Below, piece after piece: positions 7,100 to 26,600 of a DNA stretch of 64,000 nucleotides. Origin of the DNA: Methylotenera sp. (GTDB taxonomy: Bacteria; Pseudomonadota; Gammaproteobacteria; Burkholderiales; Methylophilaceae); assembly GCA_013141075.1 (NCBI GenBank), contig JABFRQ010000003.1, positions 62,001 through 126,000 of the forward strand. Direction: 5' to 3'. The number at the start of each line of letters is the position of its first letter. Position 1 is the first letter of the stretch. The position numbers and the translations under genes are program-made. The notes beneath the pieces were generated by a model. That model searched no databases. It saw only the letters and a program-made list of their open reading frames with translations, and was not told where the DNA came from.

Positions 7100-9037
7100 T
7101 TAACTATTTTTTGGCTGTGCGTTTTGAATGGCAAACTTTTCAAACGCTTCAACGGAAAGCGGCATGCTTAAAAAATAACCTTGCGCAGCCTCGCAACCAC
7201 GGGCTTTTAAGAACTCAAGTTGCGTTTCATTTTCCAAGCCTTCTGCACACACAGTTTTATTTAGATGATGTGCTAAATCGATAATAACAGAAACAATTTC
7301 ATTGTTTGCTGAAGGCTTATCAATTTCGGCTAAAAATGATCGGTCAATTTTTAGCACATCAAAAGGTAATTTTGCTAAATAACTCAAGCTGGAATAACCA
7401 GTACCAAAATCATCAATCGCAATGCGCATGCCTTGTTTACGTAAGTGTTGCAGCGAAGTATTCACATGGCCTGGCACATCTAGCAGCAAGCTTTCAGTAA
7501 TTTCAAGCACAATGTCCGAAGGATGTACTCCAGTTTCTTGCAGCAATGCTAAGAAATTTGCAGTAAAAGCTTGGCGCATAAGCTCTGCGCTAGAAACATT
7601 AAGCGCAATTCTGCTTGGCGCGATACCTTGTGCTTGCCAGGTTTTATATTGCATACACGCCATTTTTCTAACGTATTCACCTAATTGCTCAATTAAGTCG
7701 GATTCTTCCGCAATTGGAATAAATTCTATTGGCGGAATTACGCCTTTGCTAGGATGCTGCCACCGAACCAAAACTTCTGCGCCAATAATTTTGCCATTTC
7801 GCAAATTAATTTGTGGTTGATACACTAAAAATAATTCATTGCTGTTTAAGGCTTTGCGCAAGTCACGTTCTAGCGCTAAGCGAGAAATTGCCTGCGTGTT
7901 CATGTTCGCCTCATGGAACATAAACCTTTCAACCCCGCCCGCTTTAACGCGTGCCATTGCGGTATCTGCATTTTGAATCAATAAATCTACCGTGAGGCCA
8001 TCTTCAGGATAAACGCTAATGCCAATGTTGGAATTTAAAAAGTATTGGTGTTCATCATAGCTAAATTGATGTGATAGAAATTCAATCAACTTCTCCGCCA
8101 CCTTGCTAACACCCGACGTGCCCGTAACGTTTGGCAAAATAACCACAAATTCATCATTACCAAAACGAGAGACTAAATCTGGCTCGCGCAGGTTAATCTG
8201 CAGCCGTTGACCCACTTGTTTTAGAATAGCATCACCACCTGCGTAGCCTGTAGCGTCATTGACCTTTTTAAAACCATCTAAGCTAATATATAAAACTGCA
8301 ATTTTAAATTTGTAGCGTTGCGCGCGTGAAATTTCAAAAGATAAGCGCTCGCGGCAGGCACGGCGGTTAGGCAATAATGTAACTTCGTCAAAATTTTCTT
8401 GATAATAAAGGCTTTTTTCACGTAATACCAAAGTCAGCGCTACACTTAAGCGGTCTGCAATGTAACGGCTTATTCGGCGCGTATCACCTACTAACTGCAC
8501 ATTTTCTTCAAAGCCTAAATACAGCACCGCAGATAATTGCGCATCACGAAAAAGCGGCAACATCAATATGCGTTTAGCGCCCAAACCCAAAAGCGGCGCA
8601 ATAGAAGCATACGTTTCATTAGGCTCAACTAAGTATCCATTGGCATGCTCATTAAGAATTTTTTTAAGGGATTTGTCTAGCCCTGTAGCAAGGTGGTGGC
8701 GCTTACCGTCTTGCGTGGCAGCCAAGGTGCTTGAAGGGTCTGCTGGATCTTTATCTAGCTGCGCAACTGCAATGACATTACACGGAATAAAAGACGGCAC
8801 ATGTGAAAACAGCAAACCCACCACATGCTCAAAACTCGCGTTGGATAGTATTGCACAATCAATTTCGTCCATCACTGCTAGAATTTTTGCATAGTGTTCT
8901 AGCTCAAGCCTATTAGAATCTTGCAAATGGCTTGATAACTTAGAGTACGCGCCATCTTTAGATAACTTGGTTATATAAAAATATACCGCCGATACAGTCG
9001 CAAGAATAAGCAATAAAATGAGAATGAACACTGTCAT
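7100..9037 (-). CDS. GAF-like/GGDEF/EAL c-di-GMP signalling protein
   Basis: Degenerate GGDEF region (SRFGNDEFVVILPN) and an intact-looking EAL domain (GAEVLVRWQHP, ITESLLLD, IDDFGTGYSSLSYL). Confidence 0.9.
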   Translation of the reverse strand: MTVFILILLLILATVSAVYFYITKLSKDGAYSKLSSHLQDSNRLELEHYAKILAVMDEIDCAILSNASFEHVVGLLFSHVPSFIPCNVIAVAQLDKDPADPSSTLAATQDGKRHHLATGLDKSLKKILNEHANGYLVEPNETYASIAPLLGLGAKRILMLPLFRDAQLSAVLYLGFEENVQLVGDTRRISRYIADRLSVALTLVLREKSLYYQENFDEVTLLPNRRACRERLSFEISRAQRYKFKIAVLYISLDGFKKVNDATGYAGGDAILKQVGQRLQINLREPDLVSRFGNDEFVVILPNVTGTSGVSKVAEKLIEFLSHQFSYDEHQYFLNSNIGISVYPEDGLTVDLLIQNADTAMARVKAGGVERFMFHEANMNTQAISRLALERDLRKALNSNELFLVYQPQINLRNGKIIGAEVLVRWQHPSKGVIPPIEFIPIAEESDLIEQLGEYVRKMACMQYKTWQAQGIAPSRIALNVSSAELMRQAFTANFLALLQETGVHPSDIVLEITESLLLDVPGHVNTSLQHLRKQGMRIAIDDFGTGYSSLSYLAKLPFDVLKIDRSFLAEIDKPSANNEIVSVIIDLAHHLNKTVCAEGLENETQLEFLKARGCEAAQGYFLSMPLSVEAFEKFAIQNAQPKNS

Positions 9038-9137
9038 CTAGCAATAGTCTTAAATTTAAAATTATGGATATTATTCATTAGCATAAGAAAAAGGTCTATC
9101 TTTACTTTAGCTTTAAATTTTTAGCTTCAATTTTTAG

Positions 9138-10640
9138 TTGATTCCAAGGGCTTATCTATATACGATAAGAGTACAAAGCATTGCAAATGATAACAAACTA
9201 AAAATGTCCACCCATTTAGGCAACATTAACACAATGACAACAGCCGCTGTTGAAAACACCCAGTTAAATACCAAGATAAATGCAGAGTCTATACTCGAAT
9301 TTCAAGCCACTTTACTTTCACATGGCCATTTTGATGAAGCCACTACCGCACTAGCTACAGAACTAGCGCTAAAGCTGAACTTAGAACGCGTTTCTATTGG
9401 TATTAGCGAACATGGTCAAATGCAAGTAAAAGCGATTTCGCATAGTGCAGAAGTTGAATCTAAGCACGAGGTGAATCGCAGAATAGCGGCAGCGATGGAT
9501 GAAGCGGCTGAACAATCTGCTCTTATTGTTTATCCTGAAATGGCTGGCAGCCAACCGCGCCTCATGTTGGCACACGTAGCATTGGTGCGGGGCTCAGGCA
9601 ATCAGGTATCTACAATACCACTGGTGAATAATGGGGCAATTTTTGGCGCAATCACGCATGAGCGCAATGCCAGTAAGCTGTATCAGCCTGATGAAATTGA
9701 TGCTTTTAAACATATAGCCGCGCTGCTCGGGCCAGTTTTGTATCTAAAATGGAATGGTGAGCGGCCTTGGTATGCGCGTGTTAAGCAAGATTTTTCTGCA
9801 TGGTTCAACCGCCACTTTTCAATGACGGATGTTGGCTTCAAATTAGCCATGTACGCACTTACCGCGGGCTTGCTTGCTTTGCTGTTTATTCCTGTGCAAT
9901 ACAATATTAGCGCGCCTGCGCGGCTTGAAGGCTCAATTCAACGTGCGCTAGTAGCGCCCGAAAATGGCTATTTGCAGCATGCTTACGTACGTCCAGGTGA
10001 TAAAGTCAAAGCGCACCAAGTGTTAGCTGAGCTGGCAGATGAAGACTTGCTATTAGAAATTCGCCGCTGGCAAAGTGAGCTAGCGCAACATGAAAACACT
10101 TATAGCGCTGCATTGGCACAATCAGACCGCGTACAAATGGTGGTGAATGAATCAAAAGCTGAAGAAGCCAAAACGCAACTCGCGCTGGCAGAAGCTAAAC
10201 TTTCACGCGCACGTATTGTTGCGCCATTTGACGGTGTGATAATAAAAGGTGATTTAAAACAATTGCTTGGCGCGCCTGTGCAGCGCGGAGATACCCTACT
10301 CACCATTGCGCCTGCTGACTCTTTTCGGCTAATGATTGAAGTGGATGAGCGCGATATTTCTGAAGTTAAGCTTAATCAAGCAGGCAAACTTGCGCTGGTT
10401 TCATTGCCTGGCGAAACCTTAGCCTTTAAAGTGCTGCGCATTACACCCGCTGCGGTTAGCAAAGAGGAGCGTAACTTTTTTGAGGTTGAAGGTGCAATTA
10501 AGACTGCTGACCTTGCCACGCTACGCCCAGGTTTAGAAGGCATCGCAAAAATTAAAGCAGGGCAACATGCTTTAATTTGGTCGCTCACGCATCGTTTAAT
10601 TGATTGGGCAAGCATCACTTTTTGGAAATGGGGTCTGTAG
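9138..10640 (+). CDS. GAF-domain plus HlyD-type periplasmic adaptor (membrane fusion) protein; start probably at a downstream ATG
   Basis: N-terminal GAF-like region, one TM (LAMYALTAGLLALLFIP), then lipoyl/HlyD (RLEGSIQRALVAPENGYLQHAYVRPGDKVKAHQVLAEL). The listed start is TTG; ATGs at 9204 and 9234 are alternatives. Confidence 0.8.
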   Translation: MIPRAYLYTIRVQSIANDNKLKMSTHLGNINTMTTAAVENTQLNTKINAESILEFQATLLSHGHFDEATTALATELALKLNLERVSIGISEHGQMQVKAISHSAEVESKHEVNRRIAAAMDEAAEQSALIVYPEMAGSQPRLMLAHVALVRGSGNQVSTIPLVNNGAIFGAITHERNASKLYQPDEIDAFKHIAALLGPVLYLKWNGERPWYARVKQDFSAWFNRHFSMTDVGFKLAMYALTAGLLALLFIPVQYNISAPARLEGSIQRALVAPENGYLQHAYVRPGDKVKAHQVLAELADEDLLLEIRRWQSELAQHENTYSAALAQSDRVQMVVNESKAEEAKTQLALAEAKLSRARIVAPFDGVIIKGDLKQLLGAPVQRGDTLLTIAPADSFRLMIEVDERDISEVKLNQAGKLALVSLPGETLAFKVLRITPAAVSKEERNFFEVEGAIKTADLATLRPGLEGIAKIKAGQHALIWSLTHRLIDWASITFWKWGL

Positions 10641-12790
10641 TCGTGCGCGAATCGCTATTTAGCCCACTTTGGCACCGTTACTCTAAACAACGTCCACAAC
10701 TTAGAACGCACGTTACTGTGCAACCGCAGCGCTACCGTGACCAAACTTGGTATTTGCTCATTAACGATACTAACGGTAAGAATTTTAGAATCAACGAAGT
10801 TGCCTACCAATTTATTGGTCGTTGCGATGGGCATTTTTCAGTGCAAGAAGTGTGGAATAGCATGTTGGAATCGCTTGGTGACGACACGCCTACACAAGAT
10901 GAATTGATTCGTCTGCTTGGCGAGCTAGATCAGCGCGATTTGATTCGCTATGAAGTTATGCCAGATGTGCCAGGTATGTTTCGCCGCAAACAAGAAAAAA
11001 TTAAGCGCGAGCGCATGGCATTCATTAACCCGCTGGCTTTCAAGCTTTCGCTGTGGGATCCGAGCAAGTTTCTCGATAAAACCAAGTGGTTACAAAAACT
11101 CATTTTCAACCCGATTACATTCGCGCTGTGGCTGCTTATCGTGTTGAGTGCAATATTGGCCGCAGCCTCACATTGGGATGCACTGCGCCAGCATGCTAGC
11201 AATTATTTAACTACGCCGCTTTACTTATTTTTGGCATGGTTGAGCTTTCCGTTTATTAAAGCTTTGCATGAGCTTGGTCACGCACTAGCTGTGCGCCATT
11301 GGGATGGTCAAGTACGCGAAACTGGCGTTACTTTTTTTGTGTTTACCCCAGCGCCTTATGTGGATGCATCTGCATCCAGCGCATTCCGCAGCCAAACTCA
11401 GCGTATGACCGTAAGCGCCATGGGCATGATGGTGGAATTGCTGCTGGCCGCAATTGCACTTGTATTATGGCTAAGCACGCAATCTGGCGTGGTGCATGCG
11501 TTGGCGTTTGTCACCATGTTTATTTGTAGTGTGACCTCGCTATTATTCAACGGTAACCCGTTGTTGCGTTTTGACGCCTATTATATTCTGTGTGATGCCT
11601 TTGACCTGCCCAACTTAGCCATTCGTAGCCGCATGTATTGGGCCAACTTACTCAGGCGCTTAGTATTGGGTGCAAAAAACATTGTGCCAATGTCGTTTGC
11701 CATAGGCGAACGCAAATGGTTAATGGCCTACGCGCCTTTATCTATGGCGTATGGCTTGTTGATTATGGGGTATATTATATTTTGGGTAGGCTCAAAATCT
11801 TTCATTATCGGCTTACTCGTTGCGCTATTTGCACTGTTAACCATGCTGATTAAGCCATTACTCGGCACCATTAAAAACATCATTTCTACCACCGCTATCG
11901 GCACCTCAAGAAGCCGCGCAAAACTGGTGATTACTGCCATATTAGGCTTAGGCTTTGCCTTACTATTTTTGGTGCCAGTGCCGTTTAATACCATGGCGCA
12001 AGGTGTAGTTTGGCTGCCCGAGCAAGCCCGTATTAGGCCGATGACAGAGGGTTTTATCCAAGAATTTCGTGTGGCGCATGGCGCGCAAATTGAGCCGAAT
12101 CAAGTCATTTTACTGCTATCCGACCCTGATTTAATCGCCAGGCGCGACAACCTTAACAGTCAACTTGCTGGCATGCAGGTGGAGCAATATCATTTACTAT
12201 CGCAAGACATTGCCCGCGCAACTGGCATGGGTGAGAAAATTGAAAAAGTAAGCGCCGAATTAAAGCGGGTTAATGAGCAAATTGGTGAGCTTGAAGTGCG
12301 TAGCCAAGTGCAAGGTAAATTGGTGATGCCGCATCAAAATGACATGCTAGGCACTTTTGTAAAACAAGGCGCTGTGCTCGCTTATGTACTCAATAGCAAC
12401 ATTACAAAAGTGCGTGCTGCCATACCAGAGCCTGCTGCTGCGCTGGTGCACGAAAATTTAACAGGCGTGCAAGTCAGAACGGCCGACCACGCAAACCAAA
12501 TATTAACTGCCACATTATCAGCAGACACCCCCGCCGTAACCCGCACCCTGCCTAGCCCCGCGATGGGCGACCATGGTGGCGGCCGCTACGCCACCGACCC
12601 TAGTGATAAAAATGGTTTAACTACCACTGAACCCTTAGTACTCATTGACCTTAACTTGCCCACCACCACCTTAGAGCGCGTAGGTGCGCGCGTTAGCGTA
12701 CGTTTTGACCACGGTAACGCGCCTATTGCCACGCAAGTGTATCGCCATTTGCGGCAGCTTTTTCTGCGCTACTTTAACCCTTCAGATTAA
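10604..12790 (+). CDS. PqqD-like domain / M50 (site-2-type) metalloprotease / HlyD-like C-terminal region
   Basis: HELGH zinc motif in IKALHELGHALAVRHW, NPLLRFDAYYIL M50 motif, N-terminal PqqD-like region, C-terminal barrel-sandwich segment (LPEQARIRPMTEGFIQEFRVAHGAQIEPNQVILLL). The start overlaps the preceding gene. Confidence 0.85.
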   Translation: MGKHHFLEMGSVVVRESLFSPLWHRYSKQRPQLRTHVTVQPQRYRDQTWYLLINDTNGKNFRINEVAYQFIGRCDGHFSVQEVWNSMLESLGDDTPTQDELIRLLGELDQRDLIRYEVMPDVPGMFRRKQEKIKRERMAFINPLAFKLSLWDPSKFLDKTKWLQKLIFNPITFALWLLIVLSAILAAASHWDALRQHASNYLTTPLYLFLAWLSFPFIKALHELGHALAVRHWDGQVRETGVTFFVFTPAPYVDASASSAFRSQTQRMTVSAMGMMVELLLAAIALVLWLSTQSGVVHALAFVTMFICSVTSLLFNGNPLLRFDAYYILCDAFDLPNLAIRSRMYWANLLRRLVLGAKNIVPMSFAIGERKWLMAYAPLSMAYGLLIMGYIIFWVGSKSFIIGLLVALFALLTMLIKPLLGTIKNIISTTAIGTSRSRAKLVITAILGLGFALLFLVPVPFNTMAQGVVWLPEQARIRPMTEGFIQEFRVAHGAQIEPNQVILLLSDPDLIARRDNLNSQLAGMQVEQYHLLSQDIARATGMGEKIEKVSAELKRVNEQIGELEVRSQVQGKLVMPHQNDMLGTFVKQGAVLAYVLNSNITKVRAAIPEPAAALVHENLTGVQVRTADHANQILTATLSADTPAVTRTLPSPAMGDHGGGRYATDPSDKNGLTTTEPLVLIDLNLPTTTLERVGARVSVRFDHGNAPIATQVYRHLRQLFLRYFNPSD

Positions 12791-12814
12791 AAAATTCAGC
12801 TGGGAAAAACTCGC

Positions 12815-14782
12815 GTGAAAGGCTTAAACACTCCTTCCCCTGGCGTTTTACATGGTCATTACCCTGAAAAAAGTACTGTCCATGAAACCTTTTTTACCGC
12901 ACTTAAACGCAAGCTAATCACTCCTTTTGCCACGCTTGGCACAATGAGCGCTAAGCCATATCAGCGGTTTATTAAGCAAGTTAATGCCCACGAACCTGCA
13001 TTCAAAAACCTTTCTGAAGCCAGAATAAAAGCGCGTTTGCGCGAGTTACAGCCTTTACTTTCTATGCACGGCATGACAAATACACTGTTAGCCGAAGTAT
13101 TTGCAATTATTAAAAAAACCTGTGCGCGCAAACTAGGCCACACGCCTTATGACACGCAGCTTATCGCCGCGCGCATTATGCTCGATGGTAAATTGGCTGA
13201 AATGGCCACGGGTGAAGGTAAAACGCTAGCAGCAGGCATTTGCGTTGCCGCAGCTGCGCTAGCGGGCATTCCAGTGCATTTAATTACCTCAAATGATTAC
13301 TTGGTGATGCGCGATTCTGCCACCTTACGCCCGCTATTCAACGCGCTGGGGCTAACTGTAGGCGCGGTGGTGCAAGGCCAAGCAGTAGATGCACGCCAAC
13401 AAGCCTATGCTTGTGATATTACTTATGTGACCGCAAAAGAGTTGGTATTTGACTATTTACGTGATCGTACGCTTTACGGCAAAACAAAATCCGCCCTGCA
13501 TAATAGCGTGGCGCAACTGGCTGGCCATGTACCAAACTCCTTGCTACGCGGGCTTTGCATGGCCATCATTGATGAGGCCGACAGCATTTTGATTGATGAA
13601 GCGCGCGTGCCTCTGATACTCTCGCAAAGCATATTGCAAGAGGCGCAAGTGGATTACCACAGCAAAGTGATGGCACTCGCCACCTCACTTAATTTGCAAG
13701 AAGATTTTGTGCTGAACCAGCGTAATTTATCGGTCGATTTGACAGAACATGGTTGGCAAAAGCTGCAAACGCTCACAAAATCGCTAGGCCAACTTCAATA
13801 CAATAAAATGCATTTAGAAGAAACGATTTGCCAAGCCTTAGCAGCGCTACATCTCTATAAAAAAGACAAACATTATTTGGTACGCGATGACGCTGTGCAT
13901 ATTATTGACGAAATTACAGGCCGCATTGCGCCTGGCAGAATATGGTCGCGCGGCTTGCACCAACTCATTGAATTAAAAGAACATTGCAAGCCAAGTGGCG
14001 AAATGGTCACGGCCGCACAAATCACTTATCAGCGCTTTTTTCCACGCTATTTACGCCTTGGCGGCATGAGCGGTACACTAAGAGAGTCATGCGCTGAATT
14101 ATTTGGCGTATTTGGCTTAAAAATAGTGAAAGTGCCGCTCAGAAAACCCAGTCAACGTATCACGCTGCCCACGCGCATTTATCGTAATCGTCAAGATTTA
14201 TGGGCGGCCGTGACTAAGCGTGTATTAGAAATGGACAAAAATGGGCGCGCTGTTTTAATTGGCACCGATTCAGTAGCAGATTCTGAAGTGTTATCGCAAC
14301 ATCTACAAAATGCGGGCTTGGCGTACGAGGTGTTGAATGCTCGTCAAGATGCACGAGAAGCCAACATTATTGCGCACGCAGGCCAGCCAAACCACATTAC
14401 GGTTTCTACCAACATGGCTGGCAGGGGCACAGATATTAGCTTAGGCAAAGGCGTGGCTGCGCTAGGCGGCATACATTTAATAAGCTGCCAACATAACGTA
14501 TCGCGGCGCATTGATAGACAATTGCTAGGCCGCTGCGCAAGGCAGGGCAACCCTGGTAGCACAGAAACTTTAACTGCAATGGACAAGCCCTTGATTGCTC
14601 ATTTTTTTCCAAAATGGGTCGCAAAGTTGGCTGGCGAACAAGGATTATCAAGCCCGCAATGGTTGGTGATGCTCATTTTACGCTGGCCACAATGGCGAGA
14701 AGAAGCGCATCAACGTGCACAACGCCATGCCATGATGATGCATGACGCACGCATAGAGCGCGACGCTTTTTTACCAGAATAG
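12815..14782 (+). CDS. SecA-like ATPase (short SecA paralogue)
   Basis: MATGEGKTLAAGI Walker A, IDEADSILIDEARVPLILS Walker B, STNMAGRGTDISLG; 655 aa and without the usual SecA C-terminal zinc-binding tail. GTG start. Confidence 0.9.
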   Translation: MKGLNTPSPGVLHGHYPEKSTVHETFFTALKRKLITPFATLGTMSAKPYQRFIKQVNAHEPAFKNLSEARIKARLRELQPLLSMHGMTNTLLAEVFAIIKKTCARKLGHTPYDTQLIAARIMLDGKLAEMATGEGKTLAAGICVAAAALAGIPVHLITSNDYLVMRDSATLRPLFNALGLTVGAVVQGQAVDARQQAYACDITYVTAKELVFDYLRDRTLYGKTKSALHNSVAQLAGHVPNSLLRGLCMAIIDEADSILIDEARVPLILSQSILQEAQVDYHSKVMALATSLNLQEDFVLNQRNLSVDLTEHGWQKLQTLTKSLGQLQYNKMHLEETICQALAALHLYKKDKHYLVRDDAVHIIDEITGRIAPGRIWSRGLHQLIELKEHCKPSGEMVTAAQITYQRFFPRYLRLGGMSGTLRESCAELFGVFGLKIVKVPLRKPSQRITLPTRIYRNRQDLWAAVTKRVLEMDKNGRAVLIGTDSVADSEVLSQHLQNAGLAYEVLNARQDAREANIIAHAGQPNHITVSTNMAGRGTDISLGKGVAALGGIHLISCQHNVSRRIDRQLLGRCARQGNPGSTETLTAMDKPLIAHFFPKWVAKLAGEQGLSSPQWLVMLILRWPQWREEAHQRAQRHAMMMHDARIERDAFLPE

Positions 14783-14933
14783 CCATTAAATCAACGGTGA
14801 TTATTTTCAATAATTTACGTTTGGCATATAAATTGCTTATATTCAGTTAAAAATAACCCAATTTTTAACTGATTACTGACTAACCAAAATCATCGTTAGC
14901 GCCTTATATCTGCTTATTACACAGGCACTTAAG

Positions 14934-14952
14934 TTGTCTATATAATAGACAA
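14934..14952. promoter_or_regulatory. Perfect 8-3-8 palindrome overlapping a TATAAT hexamer upstream of the adaptor/giant-protein genes
   Basis: TTGTCTAT-ATA-ATAGACAA; tataat at 14941-14946. Confidence 0.5.
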
Positions 14953-15041
14953 AAATATGATTTTAAAAAAGTAGTCGCGAGGAGTTTAAAATAATTTACT
15001 TCAAGAACATTACCATTTTCTATCGCTTACGCGCTATAGAT

Positions 15042-15875
15042 TTGAGAGTCACCCATTTACAAGCAAAATGCCTAGTTGCATTGGCATTGTTATTACCCGC
15101 TACTTACAGCCTAGCGGCTCAACCTTTAGGTTGCTTAATTGAGCCTGAGCGTGTGGCTGAAGTGGGCAGCCAAGTGATTGGCGTGGTTGAATCAGTTAAA
15201 GTTGAGCGCGGCGATATTGTGCGTAAAGGGCAAATACTGGCTGTATTGCGCTCAGATGTTGAGCGTGCATCGGTAGAAGTTGCCAATACACGTAGCCAAA
15301 CTGAGGCTGAAATTCGCTCTGCCGAGGCAAATCTCAGGCTAGCACGCATTACGCAAAAACGCCAAGAAGACCTTGTAACTAAGCATTTTATTTCACAGCA
15401 AGCGCTAGATAAATCAAGCGCAGATACGGCAATTGCAGAGCAAAAACTAGCGCTTAGCAAAGAGCAATTACGCACGTCGGGCAGCGAATTAGCATTGGCG
15501 CGCGCCCAGCTTGGGCAACGTACGATTCGTTCGCCGATTGATGGCATTATTACCGACCGCTATGTGTGGCCAGGTGAGCGCGTTGAAGAAAAAGCACTAT
15601 TTCGCGTGGCAAAAATTAACCCTTTACGCGTTGAAATGCTGGTTTCGGCTTCATCTTACGGCACTATTAGCAAAGGCATGCAGCTTAGCGTTGTGCCGCA
15701 ACTACCTAATTTTCAGGCGCTTGATGCCACGGTGGTCTTAGTAGACAAACTGATTGACGGCGCGAGTAATACTTTTCGCGTGCGTGCTGAAATCAAAAAT
15801 CCTGACTCAGCGATTCCCTCTGGCCTGCGTTGCAAAGTTGAGCTGCCTGAGCCAGCCCTTGCATCTAATAAATAA
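15042..15875 (+). CDS. Periplasmic adaptor subunit (RND/HlyD family) with signal peptide
   Basis: Signal peptide LVALALLLPATYSLA, lipoyl halves (VGSQVIGVVESVKVERGDIVRKGQ; RTIRSPIDGIITDRYVWPGERV). TTG start. Confidence 0.85.
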   Translation: MRVTHLQAKCLVALALLLPATYSLAAQPLGCLIEPERVAEVGSQVIGVVESVKVERGDIVRKGQILAVLRSDVERASVEVANTRSQTEAEIRSAEANLRLARITQKRQEDLVTKHFISQQALDKSSADTAIAEQKLALSKEQLRTSGSELALARAQLGQRTIRSPIDGIITDRYVWPGERVEEKALFRVAKINPLRVEMLVSASSYGTISKGMQLSVVPQLPNFQALDATVVLVDKLIDGASNTFRVRAEIKNPDSAIPSGLRCKVELPEPALASNK

Positions 15876-15899
15876 CTTCATCATCACGTAAACCGCCCG

Positions 15900-18800
15900 A
15901 TGATGAAGTTAAGGCCAACATCCGCCAGACAACGCCCTGAGTTTGAAGAACTCGAAGCCAGAATTCTTTATTCTGCCGACGCTGGCGCCCTGCTTCACCC
16001 CGATGCGTTTAACCTAAGCGCTGAAGTGCGCGTGCTTGACCTAAGTAGCGTTAGCCCAGTCCAAACTAGCAGTGCCCAAATTACGACAGTCACATCAGAA
16101 ATCGTGTTTGTGGATACGCGCGTGAGTAATTATCAGCAATTGGTCGATGATATTACTGCGCAAAATAGCGCAAATCGCCATATTGAAGTAAATCTGCTTG
16201 ATAGTAACAAAGATGGTATTGCGCAAATTGCTGACGCGCTGGCAGGCCGCACCGACATTAGCGCGATGCACTTAATTGCTGAAGGCAATGTGGCCGAACT
16301 ATGGCTTGGCAATAGCTTTATCACGCAAGATTCAATGGCGAACACCTATGCCAAAGCTTTACAACAAATAGGCTTAAGCCTTACTGCAGATGCAGATATT
16401 TTGGTATATGGCTGTAATTTTGGGCAAGGCAGCGCGGGTGAAACCGCAGTTGCAACGCTGGCCAATTTAACTGGTGCCGATGTTGCCGCCAGTAATGACC
16501 GCACGAGCAACGCCGCCAACTTTGGCAACTGGTCGCTAGAAGTGAATTACGGAACCATTAGCACAGATGTAGTTGTTTCTGCTTACGGGCAACAAAATTG
16601 GTTTGGCGCGCTTTCTACTTTCACCGTCACCAACACCAACGATGCTGGGGCAGGCTCATTAAGACAAGCGATTATTGACGCCAACGGCAATGCAGGGGCA
16701 GATAACATCTACTTTGCGATTGCTGGTACGGGCATACATACCATCACGCTAGCTTCTAGCCTTGATAGCATTTTAGATACAGTCAACATTGACGCCACCA
16801 CTGACGATAGCTTTGCAGCAAATGGCAATAGGCCAGCAATTGTGTTAAATGGTGGTGGCACAATGTTAGATGGCTTTGAGCTTTATAGTGGTTCTGACGG
16901 CAGTACGATTCGAGGCTTTGTAATACAAAACTTCACTCAAGATGGCATTGATATTGCTGGAACATCAGGCATCACCATAGCTGGCAACTGGATAGGCTTA
17001 AATACGGCTGGCACTGGCGCTGCGGGTAGCGCAAATGGCGTTAATATTTGGGATGCTAACAACAATATTATTGGTGGCACGACAGCGGCTGACCGCAATG
17101 TTATTTCTGGTAACACCTTAGGCATTTACATTGGAAATAGTTTAAGTAACACGAGTGCTGGCAACCAAGTGCAGGGCAACTATATTGGCACCAACTCTGA
17201 TGGAACAGCATCAATATCCAACACTCATGGTGTTTATATACAATCTGCAAACAATACTGTTGGTGGGCTTTTATCAGGTGCTAGAAACATCATTTCAGGC
17301 AATACTGGTCACGGCATTGTAATGCAAGGTATTGATGCGCATAACAACTTAGTGCAAGGCAACTACATTGGTACAGATGTCACCGGCACGCTAGACATCA
17401 GCGGCACGACTGCAACATTGGGACAGTCTGGTGTTGATGTAATTGACGGCGCTTCATACAATTTAATTGGCGGCACCACTGTTGCAGCGCGCAATATTAT
17501 TTCTGGTAACAATTGGTTTGGCGTTGAGATGGTGCAGGTAGGCACTAACAACAACCTAGTGCAAGGCAACTATATTGGTACAGACGTCACAGGCACAGTA
17601 GCACTGGGCAACTCAGAAGGTGGTGCTTCTTTTTGGAATGGTGCAGCCAACAACACCATAGGCGGCAGCGTGGCTGGTGCGCGCAACATTATTTCAGGTA
17701 ACTTAAACAAAGGCGTACTGATTGGTGGCACCACAACGCCAACGGGCAATAATATTAAAGGCAACTATATTGGTACCGATGTAACAGGTACTGTAGCGCT
17801 AGCCAATGCAACTTATGGGGTTTATATTCAAAGTGGTAATGGCAATACCATTGGCGGCACCAACGCACTTGAAAGAAACATAATTTCTGGCAATGCAGAT
17901 AGCGGAGTTTACATCACGGGTTTTGACTCAATAAGCAATGTAGTTTTAGGTAATTATATTGGCACTGATGCTAGTGGAACAGTCGCCATAAGCAATGGCG
18001 GCTATGGCGTGCATATTGATAACGGCGCTAGCAACAACGTAATTGGTGATGGCGTAGCTGGTGCGCGTAGTATTGTATCGGGCAATGCTGATATTGGCAT
18101 TTATGTAGCTGATGCTAGCACTAACGGCAACAAGATTTTGGGCAATTATGTCGGGCTAAACGCAGCTGGCAATGCTGCGATATCGAATGGCTCGTTCGGT
18201 ATTGCCGTTGATTTCCAAGCTCAAAACACCCAAATAGGCGGCTCAGCAGCTGGCGAAGGTAATGTAATATCTGGCAATACAGGCACCAATGGCAGCCTTT
18301 CACGTGGCGGCATTTATTTGTATGCCGAATCTACTGTCGTACAAGGCAATATTATTGGCTTAAGCTCAGACAAATCAACCATTATCGCCAACGGTGGCGT
18401 ACCAGATATTGGTGGTTATAGTGCGGGTATTTTTATTTCTACCGCGCTTGGAAGTACACTCATTGGTGGAGATTCAGTTGGTCAGGGCAACACCATTGCA
18501 GGCAATATTGGTGACGGTATTGGCAATTTTGGCTCTGATGTAGCAATTTTAGGTAATAATATTTACAGCAACACAGCACTAGGAATTGATCTAAATGTTG
18601 ATGGCGTTTCGTTGAATGATCCATCAGCCGCCTTGGATGGAGACGCAGGGCCAAATAACCTGCAAAACTTCCCGCTACTCTATAATGCAATTGTTAATGG
18701 CGGCACACTGACTCTTACAGGTGAAATTCGCAGCGCGGCCAATACCACGTATCGACTAGAGTTTTTCCGCAGCCCATTAGGTACTGAAGACCCCACAGGC

Positions 18801-21800
18801 TATGGCGAAGGCAAAGATTATTTATCTTTTCTAGACGTCACCACAGACGCGACTGGCTTTGCCTCAATCAATACTTTCACCTCTAATATTTGGGGGGTCG
18901 TTGCAACTGATCGTATTAGCGCAACTGCTACTGAAATTGTAGCGGGCAATAATAGAAGTACATCAGAGTTCTCGCAAAATATAATCGTAGTCGAAAACTT
19001 TGCGCCAGGCATCACCGCTCAAAATGTAGTTGGGGTGAATGAAGATACGCTACTCGCATTTACTGGCATTAACACAATTAACGTTACAGATACTGACGGC
19101 AACCTTGCCAGCGCCAATTTCAACGTTAGCAGCGGCATATTAAATGTTAGCCTCACGGATGGTGCAGCTATCTCTATTGGTGCTAACAACAGTAGTAATT
19201 TAACGCTCACTGGCACGCAAATGCAAATTCAAGCCGCGGTGGCAACTCTGACTTATCAAGGCAATCTCAACTTCAATGGTAGCGATGTACTCTATATCAC
19301 TGCAACTGACAGTCTAGGCGCCAGTGCTACTGCAAACACGACAATCAATGTCGCGCCAATCAACGATGCGCCCATCTTAAGCAATCTACTTAACACCCCA
19401 ATTTTTATTGAAAACGGCGCACCTGTAGTATTAGATGCCAATATAACAATTAGCGATATTGAATTAGATGCGCTCAATGGCGGCTTGGGCAATTATGCTG
19501 GGGCACACGCATTCTTATTACGTAATGGTGGCCCAAATGCAGAAGATGTATTTTCTGCCACTGGCAACTTAAGCCCAATTACGCAAGGTGGCATTTTAAC
19601 TTTATCTGGTGTAGATATTGGCTTAATCACCCTGAACAGCAATGGTACTTTAACGTTAGTATTTAACAGCAATGCCACTACCGCAAGAGTGAATGAAACG
19701 CTACATTCATTAGCCTACGCTAATACCAGCGAGGCTCCGCCAGCCTCTGTGCAAATTGCCTGGGTTTTCTCAGATGACAACACAGGCAGTCAGGGTTTAG
19801 GTGGCTTACAGGCGACGTCAGCAATTACTAACGTCGCCATCACGCCTGTGAATGATGCGCCGACCACCACGCCTGTGACCTTGGCGCCGATTGCCGAAGA
19901 CAGCGGCGCGCGCCTCATTACCCAAGCCGAGTTGTTGGCCAATGCGGCGGATGTAGATACGCCGTTAGCCAGTTTGACGGCTTCAGGTCTCAGCATCAGT
20001 GCGGGGACTGGCTCACTGGTCGATAACGGCAATGGCACTTGGACGTATACGCCTGCCTTGAATGATGATACTGCGGTGAGCTTTACTTATACCGTGAGTG
20101 ATGGCAGCCTCACGGCAGCAGGCTCAGCGGCTTTAGACATCACGCCTGTGAATGATGCGCCGACCACCACGCCTGTGACCTTGGCGCCGATTGCCGAAGA
20201 CAGCGGCGCGCGCCTCATTACCCAAGCCGAGTTGTTGGCCAATGCGGCGGATGTAGATACGCCGTTGGCCAGTTTGACGGCTTCAGGTCTCAGCATCAGT
20301 GCGGGGACTGGCTCACTGGTCGATAACGGCAATGGCACTTGGACGTATACGCCTGCCTTGAATGATGATACTGCGGTGAGCTTTACTTATACCGTGAGTG
20401 ATGGCAGCCTCACGGCAGCAGGCTCAGCGGCTTTAGACATCACGCCTGTGAATGATGCGCCGACCACCACGCCTGTGACCTTGGCGCCGATTGCCGAAGA
20501 CAGCGGCGCGCGCCTCATTACCCAAGCCGAGTTGTTGGCCAATGCGGCGGATATTGATTCACCATTAGCAAGCTTAACGGCCACAGGCTTGAGTATTAGT
20601 GCAGGTGCTGGCTCACTCGTAGATAACTTAAACGGCACTTGGACTTATACGCCTGCCTTGAATGATGATACTGCGGTGAGCTTTACTTATACCGTGAGTG
20701 ATGGCAGCCTCACGGCAGCAGGCTCAGCGGCTTTAGACATCACGCCTGTGAATGATGCGCCGACCACCACGCCTGTGACCTTGGCGCCGATTGCCGAAGA
20801 CAGCGGCGCGCGCCTCATTACCCAAGCCGAGTTGTTGGCCAATGCGGCGGATATTGATTCACCATTAGCAAGCTTAACGGCCACAGGCTTGAGTATTAGT
20901 GCAGGTGCTGGCTCACTCGTAGATAACTTAAACGGCACTTGGACTTATACGCCAGCTTTGAATGATGATACCGCGGTAAGTTTTAGTTATATTATTTCAG
21001 ACGCAACAACAGCAATAAGTGGGGCAGCCAATTTAAACATTACTGCGGTCAATGATGCACCGACCACAACACCTGTGACTTTAGCGGCCATTATTGAAAA
21101 TAGTGGGCCACGCCTCATTACGCAGGCACAATTGCTGGCTAATACTGCTGATGTAGATAGCCCCAACCTAACTGCTACAGGCTTGAGCATTAGCAATGGC
21201 GCAGGCAGCTTAGCCAATAATGGTGATGGCACTTGGACATACACGCCCACCACTGATGACAACGCCGCGGTGTCATTTATTTACTTTGTTACCGATGGTA
21301 ATTTAACGGCGGCCACTTCTGCCAATATGGATATTACTCCTTTAGATTTGCCAGTAACGCCTACGCCACCAGCGCCAGTTCCTACACCTACGCCACCAGC
21401 GCCAGTTCCTACACCTACCCCACCAGCGCCAGTTCCGACACCTACACCACCAGCGGTAGTTCCTACACCACCAGCTGTGGTAACACCTGTAACTCCAGCC
21501 GACCCCTTGGTGAATGGCAACAACGATGCGGTTTTTACAAGCACTAGAGAAACCATCAATAATAACGTGCAACGCACCAATGTGTTTAGCTCAGCAAACT
21601 TAGATAGCTCTTTAATCAGATTTACCAACCAATTGATAACACCATTTGGCAATATTTCTACTGCATTGCAAGTGTTAGAAACCATTGATTTGCCAGCTTT
21701 TACCAACACTAACTTAACTGGCAATTTAAGCGCTTTGGTCAATAGCATCACGCAAAATACCAATATTCAAGTTGAAACCATTAAGTTTTTTGAACCCAAT

Positions 21801-22106
21801 CTGCCGCAGAATCAAAAAATTGCCCAACTCATTATTGAGCATAAAACTGCGCTCTCTAGCGTGGCGGTTACAGTTGGCTTGGTCACTTGGGCGGTTCAAC
21901 TGGGCGCTTTATTCACCTCGGTTCTAGCCACAGTACCAGCTTGGAAAAACTTAGACCCAATTGCTATTTTAGGCAAAGACGATGAAGATGACGCCCAGTG
22001 GGATGTATCTGACGATGAAGACGAAGAAATTGAAGAGAACGCTGAAGAATCTGCTGCAGATATGTGGTCAGGCAAAAATAGGGCAAACTTAAACCGTAAT
22101 ATTTAA
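15900..22106 (+). CDS. Giant surface protein: LEPR-like N-terminus, DUF4347, right-handed beta-helix repeats, VCBS/cadherin-like repeats, Pro-rich linker, C-terminal TM plus acidic tail
   Basis: FEELEARILYSADAGALL N-terminal motif; DUF4347-type VVFVDTRVSNYQQLVDDI... region; repeated NYIGTDVTGT..IGGT..ARNIISGN; repeated PVNDAPTTTPVTLAPIAEDSGARLITQAELLANAADVDTP; C-terminal VAVTVGLVTWAVQLGALFTSVLATVPAWKNLDPIAILG plus DDEDDAQWDVSDDEDEEIEENAEE. Confidence 0.9.
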   Translation: MMKLRPTSARQRPEFEELEARILYSADAGALLHPDAFNLSAEVRVLDLSSVSPVQTSSAQITTVTSEIVFVDTRVSNYQQLVDDITAQNSANRHIEVNLLDSNKDGIAQIADALAGRTDISAMHLIAEGNVAELWLGNSFITQDSMANTYAKALQQIGLSLTADADILVYGCNFGQGSAGETAVATLANLTGADVAASNDRTSNAANFGNWSLEVNYGTISTDVVVSAYGQQNWFGALSTFTVTNTNDAGAGSLRQAIIDANGNAGADNIYFAIAGTGIHTITLASSLDSILDTVNIDATTDDSFAANGNRPAIVLNGGGTMLDGFELYSGSDGSTIRGFVIQNFTQDGIDIAGTSGITIAGNWIGLNTAGTGAAGSANGVNIWDANNNIIGGTTAADRNVISGNTLGIYIGNSLSNTSAGNQVQGNYIGTNSDGTASISNTHGVYIQSANNTVGGLLSGARNIISGNTGHGIVMQGIDAHNNLVQGNYIGTDVTGTLDISGTTATLGQSGVDVIDGASYNLIGGTTVAARNIISGNNWFGVEMVQVGTNNNLVQGNYIGTDVTGTVALGNSEGGASFWNGAANNTIGGSVAGARNIISGNLNKGVLIGGTTTPTGNNIKGNYIGTDVTGTVALANATYGVYIQSGNGNTIGGTNALERNIISGNADSGVYITGFDSISNVVLGNYIGTDASGTVAISNGGYGVHIDNGASNNVIGDGVAGARSIVSGNADIGIYVADASTNGNKILGNYVGLNAAGNAAISNGSFGIAVDFQAQNTQIGGSAAGEGNVISGNTGTNGSLSRGGIYLYAESTVVQGNIIGLSSDKSTIIANGGVPDIGGYSAGIFISTALGSTLIGGDSVGQGNTIAGNIGDGIGNFGSDVAILGNNIYSNTALGIDLNVDGVSLNDPSAALDGDAGPNNLQNFPLLYNAIVNGGTLTLTGEIRSAANTTYRLEFFRSPLGTEDPTGYGEGKDYLSFLDVTTDATGFASINTFTSNIWGVVATDRISATATEIVAGNNRSTSEFSQNIIVVENFAPGITAQNVVGVNEDTLLAFTGINTINVTDTDGNLASANFNVSSGILNVSLTDGAAISIGANNSSNLTLTGTQMQIQAAVATLTYQGNLNFNGSDVLYITATDSLGASATANTTINVAPINDAPILSNLLNTPIFIENGAPVVLDANITISDIELDALNGGLGNYAGAHAFLLRNGGPNAEDVFSATGNLSPITQGGILTLSGVDIGLITLNSNGTLTLVFNSNATTARVNETLHSLAYANTSEAPPASVQIAWVFSDDNTGSQGLGGLQATSAITNVAITPVNDAPTTTPVTLAPIAEDSGARLITQAELLANAADVDTPLASLTASGLSISAGTGSLVDNGNGTWTYTPALNDDTAVSFTYTVSDGSLTAAGSAALDITPVNDAPTTTPVTLAPIAEDSGARLITQAELLANAADVDTPLASLTASGLSISAGTGSLVDNGNGTWTYTPALNDDTAVSFTYTVSDGSLTAAGSAALDITPVNDAPTTTPVTLAPIAEDSGARLITQAELLANAADIDSPLASLTATGLSISAGAGSLVDNLNGTWTYTPALNDDTAVSFTYTVSDGSLTAAGSAALDITPVNDAPTTTPVTLAPIAEDSGARLITQAELLANAADIDSPLASLTATGLSISAGAGSLVDNLNGTWTYTPALNDDTAVSFSYIISDATTAISGAANLNITAVNDAPTTTPVTLAAIIENSGPRLITQAQLLANTADVDSPNLTATGLSISNGAGSLANNGDGTWTYTPTTDDNAAVSFIYFVTDGNLTAATSANMDITPLDLPVTPTPPAPVPTPTPPAPVPTPTPPAPVPTPTPPAVVPTPPAVVTPVTPADPLVNGNNDAVFTSTRETINNNVQRTNVFSSANLDSSLIRFTNQLITPFGNISTALQVLETIDLPAFTNTNLTGNLSALVNSITQNTNIQVETIKFFEPNLPQNQKIAQLIIEHKTALSSVAVTVGLVTWAVQLGALFTSVLATVPAWKNLDPIAILGKDDEDDAQWDVSDDEDEEIEENAEESAADMWSGKNRANLNRNI
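19851..21050 (+). repeat. Four tandem exact-length 300-bp coding repeats (100 aa each)
   Basis: aatgatgcgccgaccaccacgcctgtgacc begins at 19851, 20151, 20451 and 20751; a diverged fifth unit begins at 21051. Confidence 0.95.
21361..21480 (+). repeat. Short tandem repeat encoding a proline-rich linker (PTPTPPAPV)n
   Basis: cctacgccaccagcgccagttcctacacctacgcc... repeated with a period of about 27 bp. Confidence 0.85.
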
Positions 22107-22133
22107 CGCAACATTAACACCATGTGATGCAAT

Positions 22134-23660
22134 ATGACCTTGCCAAAAATAAATCTTAGCCCAGCCCTACGCACCAGCATTGGCCTTATCGCGCTTATTA
22201 TTGGCTGGCTAATGCTCATGGATTTATTGCTAGGCCTTTGGCCAAATGAAAAAGCTATGCTCAAAGAGCTGCGCCAACGCACTAGCGAAAATTTGACCAT
22301 TCAATCTGCCGTGCTTTTACAATCTGGCGACACAATCGCGCTTAAAAAAACGCTTGAAGAAGCTGTGCGCCGTGACCCGCAAATTTATTCAATCGCCATA
22401 CGCAAAAATCAAGATAAAATTTTGATGCAAGCGGGCAACCACAACCTTTATTGGAAACCAACCTCCGCCACGCAATCAACTTTAGACTACGTGCGCGTTG
22501 AGCTAAAAGCCAACCAGCAACACTGGGGCGATCTTGAAATCGCGTTTCATTCATCGTCTCCACAAACAATTTTAGATTGGTTTAAACAGCCAATTGTCAT
22601 GGGTTTCTTGCTTCTTTTATTTGGCGGCACTGCGTTATATACCTTATATTTACGCCGAATATTCATTTATCTAGACCCATCATCCGTCATTCCAGACCGT
22701 GTATCAGCCGCATTTGATAACTTTAGTGAAGGCGTAATGATGGTCGATAGAAGCGGCCGCGTTATTTTAGCAAACAAGACTTTACGCAATTGGGTAGAAG
22801 AAAAAAATAATCAACTATTCGGAAAATCCAGCAAAGATTTACCTTGGCTAAAAGCAGCGTTGCGTGAAGACCCAAAAAACTACCCGTGGATTAAAGCCAT
22901 GGACTCGCAATTAGCCATCAATGGCTGGCAGCTTGAGTTTCACAAATCCAATGGCGAAACCATTAAAGCCGTGCTTAACTGCTCGCCAATTCAAGATGCC
23001 GCAAAAAACGTGCGCGGCTGTTTAGTGACTTTTGACAACGTCACTGAAATGGACCGCATGAATAAAGAGCTCACGCTCACTATGGAGAAACTCAGTAAAT
23101 CGCAAGAAGAAATCGAAATTCAAAATACCGAGCTACGCAATTTAGCCTCGCGCGACCCGCTCACCAGCTGCTTAAACAGAAGAGCTTTCTTTGAAGATGC
23201 AGAAAGCATTTTTGCCAGCTACGTGCTTGAAAAACGACCACTGGCCTGCATCATGACCGATATTGACCATTTCAAATCATTCAATGATTTATACGGACAT
23301 GCAGTGGGCGATAAAGTGCTAGTCGCTTTCTCAAGAACTTTGCTTTTTGTGCTGCGTAATGAAGATTTACTATGTCGCTACGGTGGTGAAGAGTTTTGCA
23401 TTTTACTACCCGATGCCACGCCAGAAGTTGCACTAAGTATTGCAGAGCGCTTACGCAGCGAGGTTGAAACGCGCGCAGGCTCATCGGTAAGGAACACGCA
23501 AGACTTAAAAATCACCTCTAGCTTTGGCGTTGCATCACTCACTGCTGGCGCTAATAATCTAGCGGAAATGATAGACCAAGCAGATAAAGCACTATATGCC
23601 GCCAAAAAAGCTGGGCGTAACTGTGTAAAAGTGTGGGGTGAGTTTGCGGCTGAAAACTAG
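22134..23660 (+). CDS. PAS-GGDEF diguanylate cyclase with TM sensor region
   Basis: Two TM segments, PAS region (EGVMMVDRSGRVILANK), CRYGGEEFCILLPDA (GGEEF). Confidence 0.92.
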   Translation: MTLPKINLSPALRTSIGLIALIIGWLMLMDLLLGLWPNEKAMLKELRQRTSENLTIQSAVLLQSGDTIALKKTLEEAVRRDPQIYSIAIRKNQDKILMQAGNHNLYWKPTSATQSTLDYVRVELKANQQHWGDLEIAFHSSSPQTILDWFKQPIVMGFLLLLFGGTALYTLYLRRIFIYLDPSSVIPDRVSAAFDNFSEGVMMVDRSGRVILANKTLRNWVEEKNNQLFGKSSKDLPWLKAALREDPKNYPWIKAMDSQLAINGWQLEFHKSNGETIKAVLNCSPIQDAAKNVRGCLVTFDNVTEMDRMNKELTLTMEKLSKSQEEIEIQNTELRNLASRDPLTSCLNRRAFFEDAESIFASYVLEKRPLACIMTDIDHFKSFNDLYGHAVGDKVLVAFSRTLLFVLRNEDLLCRYGGEEFCILLPDATPEVALSIAERLRSEVETRAGSSVRNTQDLKITSSFGVASLTAGANNLAEMIDQADKALYAAKKAGRNCVKVWGEFAAEN

Positions 23661-23694: not shown

Positions 23695-26600
23695 TCACAA
23701 ATCAGCCCAAACTTTTTCAAGCCGCTTTATCGAGACAGGGAACGGCGTTTTAAGTTCTTGTGCAAATAGCGACACACGCAACTCTTCAATCAACCAGCGA
23801 TAATCAAGCAGGTCTTGCGGAATATCCAAATGCGCAAGCCTTAGCGCGCTAATTTTAGCTTGCCATTTATCCCACAACACGCCCACGCTGGCGGCATTTT
23901 TACCATCTCTATCTGGGTTGGCGGGCTGCTTTTCTATGCGTAGCCTTAACGCTTTTAAGTAGCGTGGAATATTTTGCAAGTATTCCCACGGCGTTTGGCT
24001 GAAGCAGTTTTTATAGACTAACTGACCGATTTGTTGTTCGCAATCGCGCTTTAAGCGATTCACCGTTGCGGGCATTTTGCTTTGTTGCGCTACTAGCAAA
24101 CTGTATTCAGTTGCAATTGCTTGTGCTTGCCGCGCGATGGCTTGGCTCACCGCTGGTAGCCGCGTTCTAGCGCGCGCTTTGAGCTTCATAAAGTCTGCAT
24201 TGGTACGCGGCAAATCATCGTCACCAATAAATGCACGGTCGGCGATGGCTAGCAATAAATCCTCACGCAAATCTTCGGGCGACATCACGCCTCGCAAAGC
24301 TAGCGCGTATTGATTAAAATTTGGCAAGCTTTTTTCAAGCTGCTTCATTTGCTCTTTCAACTCAAAGCGCATTAAACGACACACGCCTTTGCGGTGGCTT
24401 TGCTCTGCTTCACGCTCAGTATCAAATAATTTAACTGAAATACTATCTTCATCGTCTTCCAGCGCGGGGTAACCTGTTACTTTCAAACCGTCACGCTCAA
24501 AGCTTAAAGTTTGTGGTAAATCGCCAAAATCCCACTGTTTTAGACCCGTTTTTTCGATGTCTGGAGAAGTGTTTCTAAAGGTAAGTTGTGCTGCTGAGCC
24601 TAATTGTTTTTTGAGCGCCTGCCAATCGCGCCCCATTGCTAGCTCTCGGCCAGCATCATCTACCACACTAAAGTTCATCAGCAGGTGCGCGGGGGTTGGT
24701 TCTGTCCAATCTTCTACTGATATTTTCAGCGTAGTCACACGCTGTATGTGCGCAGCCAACACCTGTTTAATCGCGCCCTCACCAATTTTTGTTTGCTCTA
24801 AAAAGTGAGTTACGAACTCAGGTACTGGTACACACACACGCCTAAAAGTCTTAGGCAACGCCTTAATTAAGTAGGTTAATTTTTCGCGCAACATGCCTGG
24901 CACCAGCCATTCTGTTGGTGCGGGGTCAAGTTGATTTAACAAAGCCAGAGGAATAGTCGCCGTTACGCCATCTAACACATGGTTAGGTTCAAAGCGATAT
25001 TTCAGCGTAATCTCCACCCCACCCAACACCATTTTTTCAGGAAACTGCACCGCAGTAATCGCATCCGCCCCATGGCGCATTAAGTCGTCACGCGTTAAAT
25101 ATAACAATGTATGATTCAGCTTTTCTGCACCTTCGCGCCATTTTTCAAATGTTGCTGCTTGATAAATATCGGCAGGAATTTTGCTATCATAAAACGCAAA
25201 TAATTGATGCTCGTCTATTAACACATCTTGCCGACGCGCTTTATGTTCCAACTCCTCAATTTCGGCGATTAAGCGTTCATTTGCGGTGAAAAATGCTGCT
25301 TTGGTATCGAACTCCCCATTAGCAAGCGCCTCACGAATAAATATTTCACGCGATTCTTGCGCGTTAATTGGCCCGTAATGTACACGGCGCTTGGGGATAA
25401 TGGTTAGACCATAAAGTGAAACGCGCTCCCAAGCGTTGACCATGCCCATTTTTCTATCCCAGCGCGGGTCTGTGTATTGGCTTTCGGTTAAACCGCGAGC
25501 GAGCGGCTCAATCCAATCAGGTTCAATTTTCGCCACACAACGAGCATATAACTTACTGGTATCCACCAACTCTGCTGCAATCACCCATTTCGGGCGAGTC
25601 TTTTTAAGCGTTGAGCCAGGTGCCACGAAAAATCGAATACCGCGCGCACCTGCATAACTATCGTTATCGCCATCTTTAAAGCCGATATTACCTAGCAGGC
25701 CCGCTAATAATGCTTTATGAATTTGCTCAAAGTTCGCATCTTTTTCGTTAAGCTTAAATTCCATTTCATCGGTAATTTGCTTAATCTGCCCATGCAGTTC
25801 ACGCCATTCTTTTAAACGCAAAAAAGATAGAAAATTGCTATGGCATTGATTCAGCAAGTCTTTATTGGTTTTTTTAGTTTTAAGCGCATTATCAAAAAAA
25901 TCCCAAAGCTTGAGATAACTCATAAAGTCTGAACCTTCGCCTGCAAACTTCGCATGCGCATTATCCGCCGCTTCGCGCTTATCCATTGGGCGCTCGCGCG
26001 GGTCTTGTATGCTAAGCACGCTGGCGATAATCAAAATTTCTTTTAGGCAGCCCTCACGTTTTGCAGCCAAAATCATGCGACCTACTCGCGGATCTAGCGG
26101 CAATTTGGCAAGTTGTAAGCCAGTTTCGGTAATTTGGCGCTTCACGTCTACCGCGCCCAGCTCTTGCAGTAGCTGGTAACCATCAGTAATTAAGCGCGAT
26201 GAAGGCGCTTCAATAAATGGAAAATCCGCAATATCGCCAAGCCGCAAAGCTGCCATGCGCAAAATAACGCTGGCAAGTGAGCTGCGTAAAATTTCAGGCT
26301 CGGTAAATTCTGGGCGACCGTCAAAATCTTGTTCTGAATATAATCGCACGCAAATACCGTTAGATACACGCCCACAACGCCCCGCTCGCTGCTTGGCGGC
26401 GGCTTGCGAAATCTTTTCAATCTGCAATTGCTCAACTTTGGCACGTGTGCTGTAGCGGTTCATGCGCGCCAAGCCTGCATCTATCACATATTTAATGCCA
26501 GGCACGGTGAGCGAGGTTTCTGCCACATTGGTCGCCAAAACGATGCGTCGTGAGCTGTGTGGCTTGAATATTTTTTGCTGATCTTCAATTGAAAGCCGCG

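Follow-up and report, generated by a model that had tools for sequence, protein, structure and literature searches.

The window analysed here, a stretch of 64,000 nucleotides from a Methylotenera genome, contains a run of genes for HlyD-type adaptors, an M50 metalloprotease, a shortened SecA-like ATPase and a protein of 2068 residues. The first-pass annotation had proposed that the SecA paralogue and the M50/HlyD proteins move and process the giant protein by a route distinct from type I and two-partner secretion. The question is whether these genes form a dedicated system for exporting their giant neighbour and, if so, what marks the substrate and what drives it across the envelope.

The gene cluster and its products

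All five consecutive plus-strand genes were confirmed in place (table 1) and were compared with Pfam and NCBIfam. P0002 matched HlyD_3 and HlyD_D23, along with a weak GAF hit (20.0 bits against a cut-off of 22.4); P0003 matched M50 above the cut-off (28.8), with HlyD_D23 and PqqD slightly under theirs; P0005 is an HlyD protein; and P0006 combines DUF4347 (155 bits) with cadherin repeats. The HlyD matches in P0002, P0003 and P0005 thus give three HlyD modules, where ‘two or three’ had been suggested. The HELGH motif of the M50 protein, the ATPase motifs of the SecA-like protein of about 655 residues (SecA_DEAD, P-loop_SecA and SecA_PP_bind all scored well above cut-off) and an N-terminal LEPR-type motif in the giant protein, in a divergent version, were present as first described. 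The description of the genes as partly overlapping held for P0002 and P0003 but for no other pair, and even this overlap may be an effect of the ORF caller: P0003 homologues begin MRESLFSPLW, compatible with a GTG start at 10643, past the P0002 stop codon. The host genome (2.48 Mb) encodes one canonical SecA (a 930-residue frame) in addition to the 655-residue P0004.

GGDEF/EAL genes flank several loci as they do in the window (L and G numbers denote loci and genomes, respectively). Divergent GGDEF-EAL genes lie upstream of the module in L045, L046 and L059, and a GGDEF gene lies 3′ of the giant gene in L068 and L073. A gene for an HrpA-type helicase is found near the module at 23695–27819 of the window and in two other loci, both betaproteobacterial (L079:1721–5698 and L094:2314–6267), perhaps reflecting a shared insertion spot.

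Table 1. Genes, domains and motifs of the candidate export locus, in window coordinates.
Feature	Position	Strand	Comment
GGDEF-EAL c-di-GMP protein P0001	7100..9037	-	Divergent from operon; likely regulator
GAF-HlyD inner-membrane adaptor P0002	9138..10640	+	Pfam/NCBIfam
PqqD-like/M50 protease/HlyD fusion P0003	10604..12790	+	True start perhaps GTG 10643
PqqD-like (RRE-type) N-terminal domain of P0003, residues 31-116	10694..10951	+	PF05402 in homologues; AF2 secondary structure
HELGH motif of P0003, residues 222-226	11267..11281	+	D324 at 11573-11575
HlyD/MFP domain fused to M50, P0003 residues 457-728	11972..12787	+	Model; PDB fold matches MexA/AcrA
Accessory SecA ATPase P0004, 655 aa	12815..14782	+	NBD1, PPXD, NBD2, first scaffold helix only
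Walker A GEGKT of P0004, residues 133-137	13211..13225	+	G133, G135, K136 invariant in 60 homologues
Third HlyD P0005, RND-type periplasmic adaptor	15042..15875	+	Pfam/NCBIfam
Giant LEPR/DUF4347/cadherin protein P0006, 2068 aa	15900..22106	+	Proposed substrate
LEPR-type N-terminal tag FEELEARILYSADA, P0006 residues 15-28	15942..15983	+	Proposed export signal
DUF4347 domain, P0006 residues 68-237	16101..16610	+	Pfam
C-terminal hydrophobic segment and PAWxxxDPxxIL block, P0006 residues 1977-2026	21828..21977	+	Followed by acidic tail
PAS-GGDEF P0007	22134..23660	+	Closes gene run

Conservation of the module

A scan taking one genome per species found no fewer than 548 relatives. Its 80 best loci (L045–L124) are distributed over Beta-, Gamma- and Alphaproteobacteria, Desulfobacterota, Nitrospirota, Rokubacteria and Omnitrophota. 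The operon order GAF-HlyD, M50, SecA, HlyD recurs among these best 80: the GAF-HlyD gene lies directly 5′ of M50 in 65 of 69 testable loci, SecA lies 3′ of M50 in 66 of 74, and an open reading frame of at least 1200 residues was found in 30 of the 35 loci with 9 kb on either side. P0003 had a match in 14 of 101 relatives, and the best matches show the order GAF-HlyD, M50, SecA, HlyD. None of the other genus members searched showed a close, full-length P0003 match, which makes the module sporadic. In the nearest relative (G058; locus L046), no giant gene stands beside the module; this locus has a Band_7/SPFH gene after SecA (L046:12340–13245) and no third HlyD next door. Small genes for SapC (PF07277) and DUF3467 proteins recur beside the module (neighbours in L045–L124; L197:12735–13052) and possibly encode chaperones or accessory factors. 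The neighbouring protein L065:15172 had no Pfam match.

Co-occurrence of tag, protease and SecA

Co-occurrence was quantified over 370 genomes of the class, taken as one fixed sample; these genomes are related, so that p-values are indicative. With the M50 model (A5), 30 genomes scored strongly (>460 bits) and 22 more fell in a weaker range (215–440 bits). The accessory SecA model (A4, at 1e-205) found 22 genomes, all of them within the strong-M50 set (Fisher p about 4e-29, indicative for 370 related genomes). The LEPR tag model (A6, E up to 1e-3) found 29, with 27 inside the same set (Fisher p about 1e-35 to 2e-35, likewise indicative); the two tagged genomes outside it, G352 and G359, both belong to the intermediate M50 group. 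The tag was also present in all 20 genomes chosen by M50, about half of which had not been used to build the tag model. The reverse test, starting from the tag alone on the Desulfobacterota side, covered six tag genomes. The module was found in all three that combined a strong tag with sufficient assembled sequence (G475, G589 and G753), two were on short contigs (G709 and G583), and G704, a weak tag match, had no module on its 10-kb contig. One of 14 Omnitrophota genomes was positive, which is too few for a phylum-wide statistic.

The first-pass annotation had named a lack of co-occurrence elsewhere as grounds for refuting its proposal, and the outcome does not refute it: M50/HlyD/SecA and LEPR giants co-occur nearly one-to-one, across the 370 genomes and across 80 loci from several phyla. 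Chance neighbourhood was considered and is ruled out by the 370-genome analysis, where the pattern is far beyond chance. This near one-to-one association makes a dedicated LEPR export module very likely on sequence grounds, within which we infer recognition, transport, cleavage and regulation.

SecA is a less constant member. A relaxed search detected it in two further strong-M50 genomes, G149 and G417 (contig edge), leaving six of the 30 without an accessory SecA (G284, G403, G265, G270, G148 and G181, the last cut by contig ends), and none was seen at the type-2 loci read. A universal SecA core is ruled out by these six genomes, which have M50 and the tag; SecA is therefore usual, not essential, and may have an auxiliary role or be replaceable. 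It is M50 and HlyD, rather than SecA, that constantly accompany the tag.

The LEPR leader and its subtypes

The tag of P0006, FEELEARILYSADA, is a divergent LEPR sequence, scoring 15.1 bits against NF012209 with the whole protein and 21.2 bits with the N-terminus alone (cut-off 17). The leader consensus is E-x-L-E-P-R-x-L-[YL]-S-A-D, and module-adjacent giants with the N-terminus in view open with [LFMIV]E-x-R-x-[LM]-x-[SA]-A. A Sec-type hydrophobic core is missing from the LEPR tag. LEPR-tagged frames of about 14,000 residues were found in G312, G149 and G483 (14112, 13848 and 13956 residues, respectively), and G312 has five tagged frames.

Giants adjoining a distant M50 subtype start with LEPRxMFDGAA. 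The MFDGAA tag model (A8) matched 12 of the 22 genomes with only the distant M50, compared with 0 of 28 with only the strong M50, and two genomes with both M50 types hold both tags. G206 and G316, which have type-2 tags, had no M50 at the limit used.

Ten giants, P0006 included, share a C-terminus in which a hydrophobic stretch is followed by a W-x(3-4)-DP block and then by a short, often acidic tail. On sequence evidence, this segment would fit a membrane-held substrate released by M50. It is frequent with LYSAD/LFSAD tags, rare with other tags and absent from the other giant subtype, where M50 must therefore use another or an additional substrate site. The aromatic residue of the tag does not predict the C-terminal anchor perfectly: the anchor accompanies 8 of 8 LYSAD/LFSAD tags and 1 of 6 others (the exception being L176), a tendency only.

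The earlier use of DUF4347 as a marker of the system did not survive, as the domain is also found on proteins of genomes without M50. Among these DUF4347 proteins, those in L165 and L171 have a Sec-type signal peptide and those in L156, L159 and L168 have no visible N-terminal signal; the exceptions are L161, with a related LEKRIVFDAAA start, and L170. Since most DUF4347 proteins from M50-less genomes are untagged, it is the N-terminal tag, not the domain, that tracks the machinery and is the right marker.

A SecA without its C-terminal domains

Homologues of P0004 are mostly 646–740 residues long, with few longer frames. The SecA_DEAD, PPXD and P-loop domains were found in all 60, with intact Walker motifs, while the wing/scaffold domain (PF07516) was matched in one of the 60, marginally (E 0.0068), against 242 bits for the housekeeping copy. 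The AF2 model of P0004 (pLDDT 89.8) terminates in a single long helix (615–650), and neither the model nor comparison with the housekeeping copy revealed an equivalent of the last 240 residues of housekeeping SecA, where the wing domain and two-helix finger lie. P0004 is thus without the wing domain, the two-helix finger and the C-terminal domain. The finger is thought to be central to SecA pushing chains through SecY. P0004 scored below every SecA2 equivalog cut-off (TIGR04397, 466 of 1085 bits; TIGR03714, 446 of 930; TIGR04221, 402 of 725; NF012136, 339 of 1100), and in an unrooted tree a 100/100 branch divides the accessory copies from housekeeping SecA. In L045, a Burkholderiales MAG, the SecA gene is broken into three frames, reflecting decay or sequencing errors.

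These features bear on an accessory Sec reading, in which the small SecA, alone or together with housekeeping SecA, drives the giant through SecYEG and HlyD and M50 act only later, at the outer-membrane step or in quality control. Gram-positive accessory SecA2 systems export giant adhesins. In its favour, all 60 homologues retain NBD1, PPXD and NBD2, and the P0004 model superposes best on SecA from SecA–SecY complexes (5eul; TM 0.79, rmsd 3.7). However, the loss of the wing, finger and C-terminal domains, the lack of a Sec-type hydrophobic core in the tag and the constancy of M50 and HlyD, not SecA, as its partners all argue against it, and we consider this reading possible but unlikely.

Adaptors and the envelope conduit

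No ABC exporter is present among the cluster genes, the 25 families most common in 91 neighbours include no ABC family, and the cluster genes of the window include no TolC. Several TolC-family genes are found elsewhere in the host genome, and others lie near about 8 of the 80 loci and in the type-2 loci L155 and L167, type-2 clusters combining HlyD, HlyD-M50 and TolC. On a Methylosinus plasmid, genes for a giant, DUF3467, HlyD, M50, SecA (annotated as a prepilin peptidase), HlyD and TolC stand in one row. The statement that the cluster has no ABC transporter or TolC holds for these cluster genes, but TolC lies within the operon of some relatives and elsewhere in the host genome. Similarly, the claim of a route distinct from type I stands for the inner-membrane energiser, there being no recurring ABC family among the neighbour families shown, but was overstated for the envelope conduit, because HlyD plus, at some loci, TolC resembles type I. 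Neither the TpsB/FhaC barrel nor the TPS domain of two-partner secretion was found among the cluster genes in Pfam or NCBIfam.

The alternative of an ordinary type I system, with its ABC transporter encoded elsewhere and M50 and SecA as accessory factors, would suit the three HlyD modules, the TolC genes within some operons and the joining of HlyD, HlyD-M50 and TolC in type-2 clusters. Against it, the neighbour families shown include no recurring ABC transporter family, and P0006 has no RTX repeat family detectable by Pfam and ends in a hydrophobic segment and acidic tail; we regard this alternative as quite improbable.

The PqqD/M50/HlyD protein

H222, E223, H226 and D324 are invariant across 63 P0003 homologues, and the HExxH motif and distal Asp, placed in membrane helices as is diagnostic for M50, identify P0003 as a predicted protease. 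The PqqD family (PF05402) was matched in 41 of the 63 homologues, although it fell below the Pfam cut-off in P0003 itself. The AF2 model of P0003 (pLDDT 90.9) has an N-terminal PqqD-like domain of three strands and three helices, then a membrane-helix bundle and a C-terminal MFP domain, which matches MexA and AcrA in the PDB. PqqD-type domains bind the leaders of RiPP precursors, and by analogy we infer that the PqqD-like domain of P0003 binds the LEPR leader. That PqqD, M50 and HlyD form a RiPP/bacteriocin-type maturation and export set merely adjoining the giant gene is highly improbable: the top NCBIfam match of P0003 is a daptide intramembrane metalloprotease and NHLM HlyD families are also matched, but the score (146 bits) is well below the equivalog cut-off of 300, neither a precursor peptide nor a modification enzyme nor an ABC exporter was recognised, and the tagged giant is the constant neighbour, with genome-wide co-occurrence.

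A model for export

We think it probable that the cluster is a dedicated exporter of giant surface or biofilm proteins, with an N-terminal LEPR leader replacing the Sec signal peptide. Recognition of the leader would take place in the cytosol, with the PqqD-like domain of P0003 as the most likely reader, and the cut-down SecA-like ATPase would hold the long chain unfolded and feed it to the membrane. There, the chain would pass through an inner-membrane complex of M50-HlyD and GAF-HlyD, or through SecYEG handing over to that complex, and exit via the three HlyD-type adaptors and a TolC-type channel, the gene for which may lie inside or outside the operon. In the subtype found in the window, the C-terminal hydrophobic PAWxxxDPLPIL segment could tether the protein within the envelope, to be freed by the M50 intramembrane protease, and the flanking GGDEF/EAL proteins may link export to c-di-GMP.

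There is perhaps an even chance that this represents an undescribed, widespread Gram-negative secretion system in which a finger-less SecA-derived ATPase and M50-HlyD replace the ABC transporter of an HlyD/TolC conduit, the N-terminal LEPR leader serves as the signal and is of one kind with the planctomycete export motif proposed in 2004, and leader and M50 subtypes co-evolve. If so, this would explain how many environmental bacteria release proteins ranging from 2,000 to about 14,000 residues, and a SecA motor would operate without an element thought central to driving chains through SecY.

Comparison with known systems

The LEPR-XLL family (NF012209) matched 21 of 21 tags, and Planc_extracel (PF07595) matched 9 of the 21 weakly; both describe tags only, and no export machinery named for either was found. 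The planctomycete motif RRLxxExLExRxLLA is reported as a proposed export signal in PMC8567305 (citing Studholme 2004). The planctomycete extracellular motif PF07595 resembles the LEPR tag, and that paper names no machinery for it. For LEPR and planctomycete-type tags, the module provides concrete candidate machinery, namely a defined operon with a genome-scale association. The freely available literature searched contained no published description of an LEPR export system.

In its fusion of a PqqD-like domain to an M50-type protease, the module recalls daptide/YydH-type HExxH membrane proteases and PqqD-type leader-binding domains, but differs in the HlyD fusion, the SecA partner, the giant neighbour and a score below the equivalog cut-off. 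Like the accessory Sec (SecA2/SecY2) systems of Gram-positive bacteria, it has an extra SecA that seems reserved for giant adhesin-like proteins, but no SecY2 or Asp partner was seen and its SecA lacks the wing and two-helix finger. Judged by the NCBIfam SecA2 cut-offs, which P0004 does not reach, the module is not accessory Sec. With type I secretion (HlyB–HlyD–TolC) and LapA-type giant adhesins, the module has in common HlyD adaptors, TolC in some operons, a giant repeat adhesin-like substrate, nearby c-di-GMP proteins and a protease. It differs in having an N-terminal tag in place of a C-terminal signal, a SecA-like ATPase, and M50 in place of LapG, and is not type I by definition because it has no ABC exporter. 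The module may work like both type I and accessory Sec. What appears new is the combination of signal and machinery; taken singly, all the component families are known, and in its conduit the module resembles tripartite HlyD/TolC exporters.
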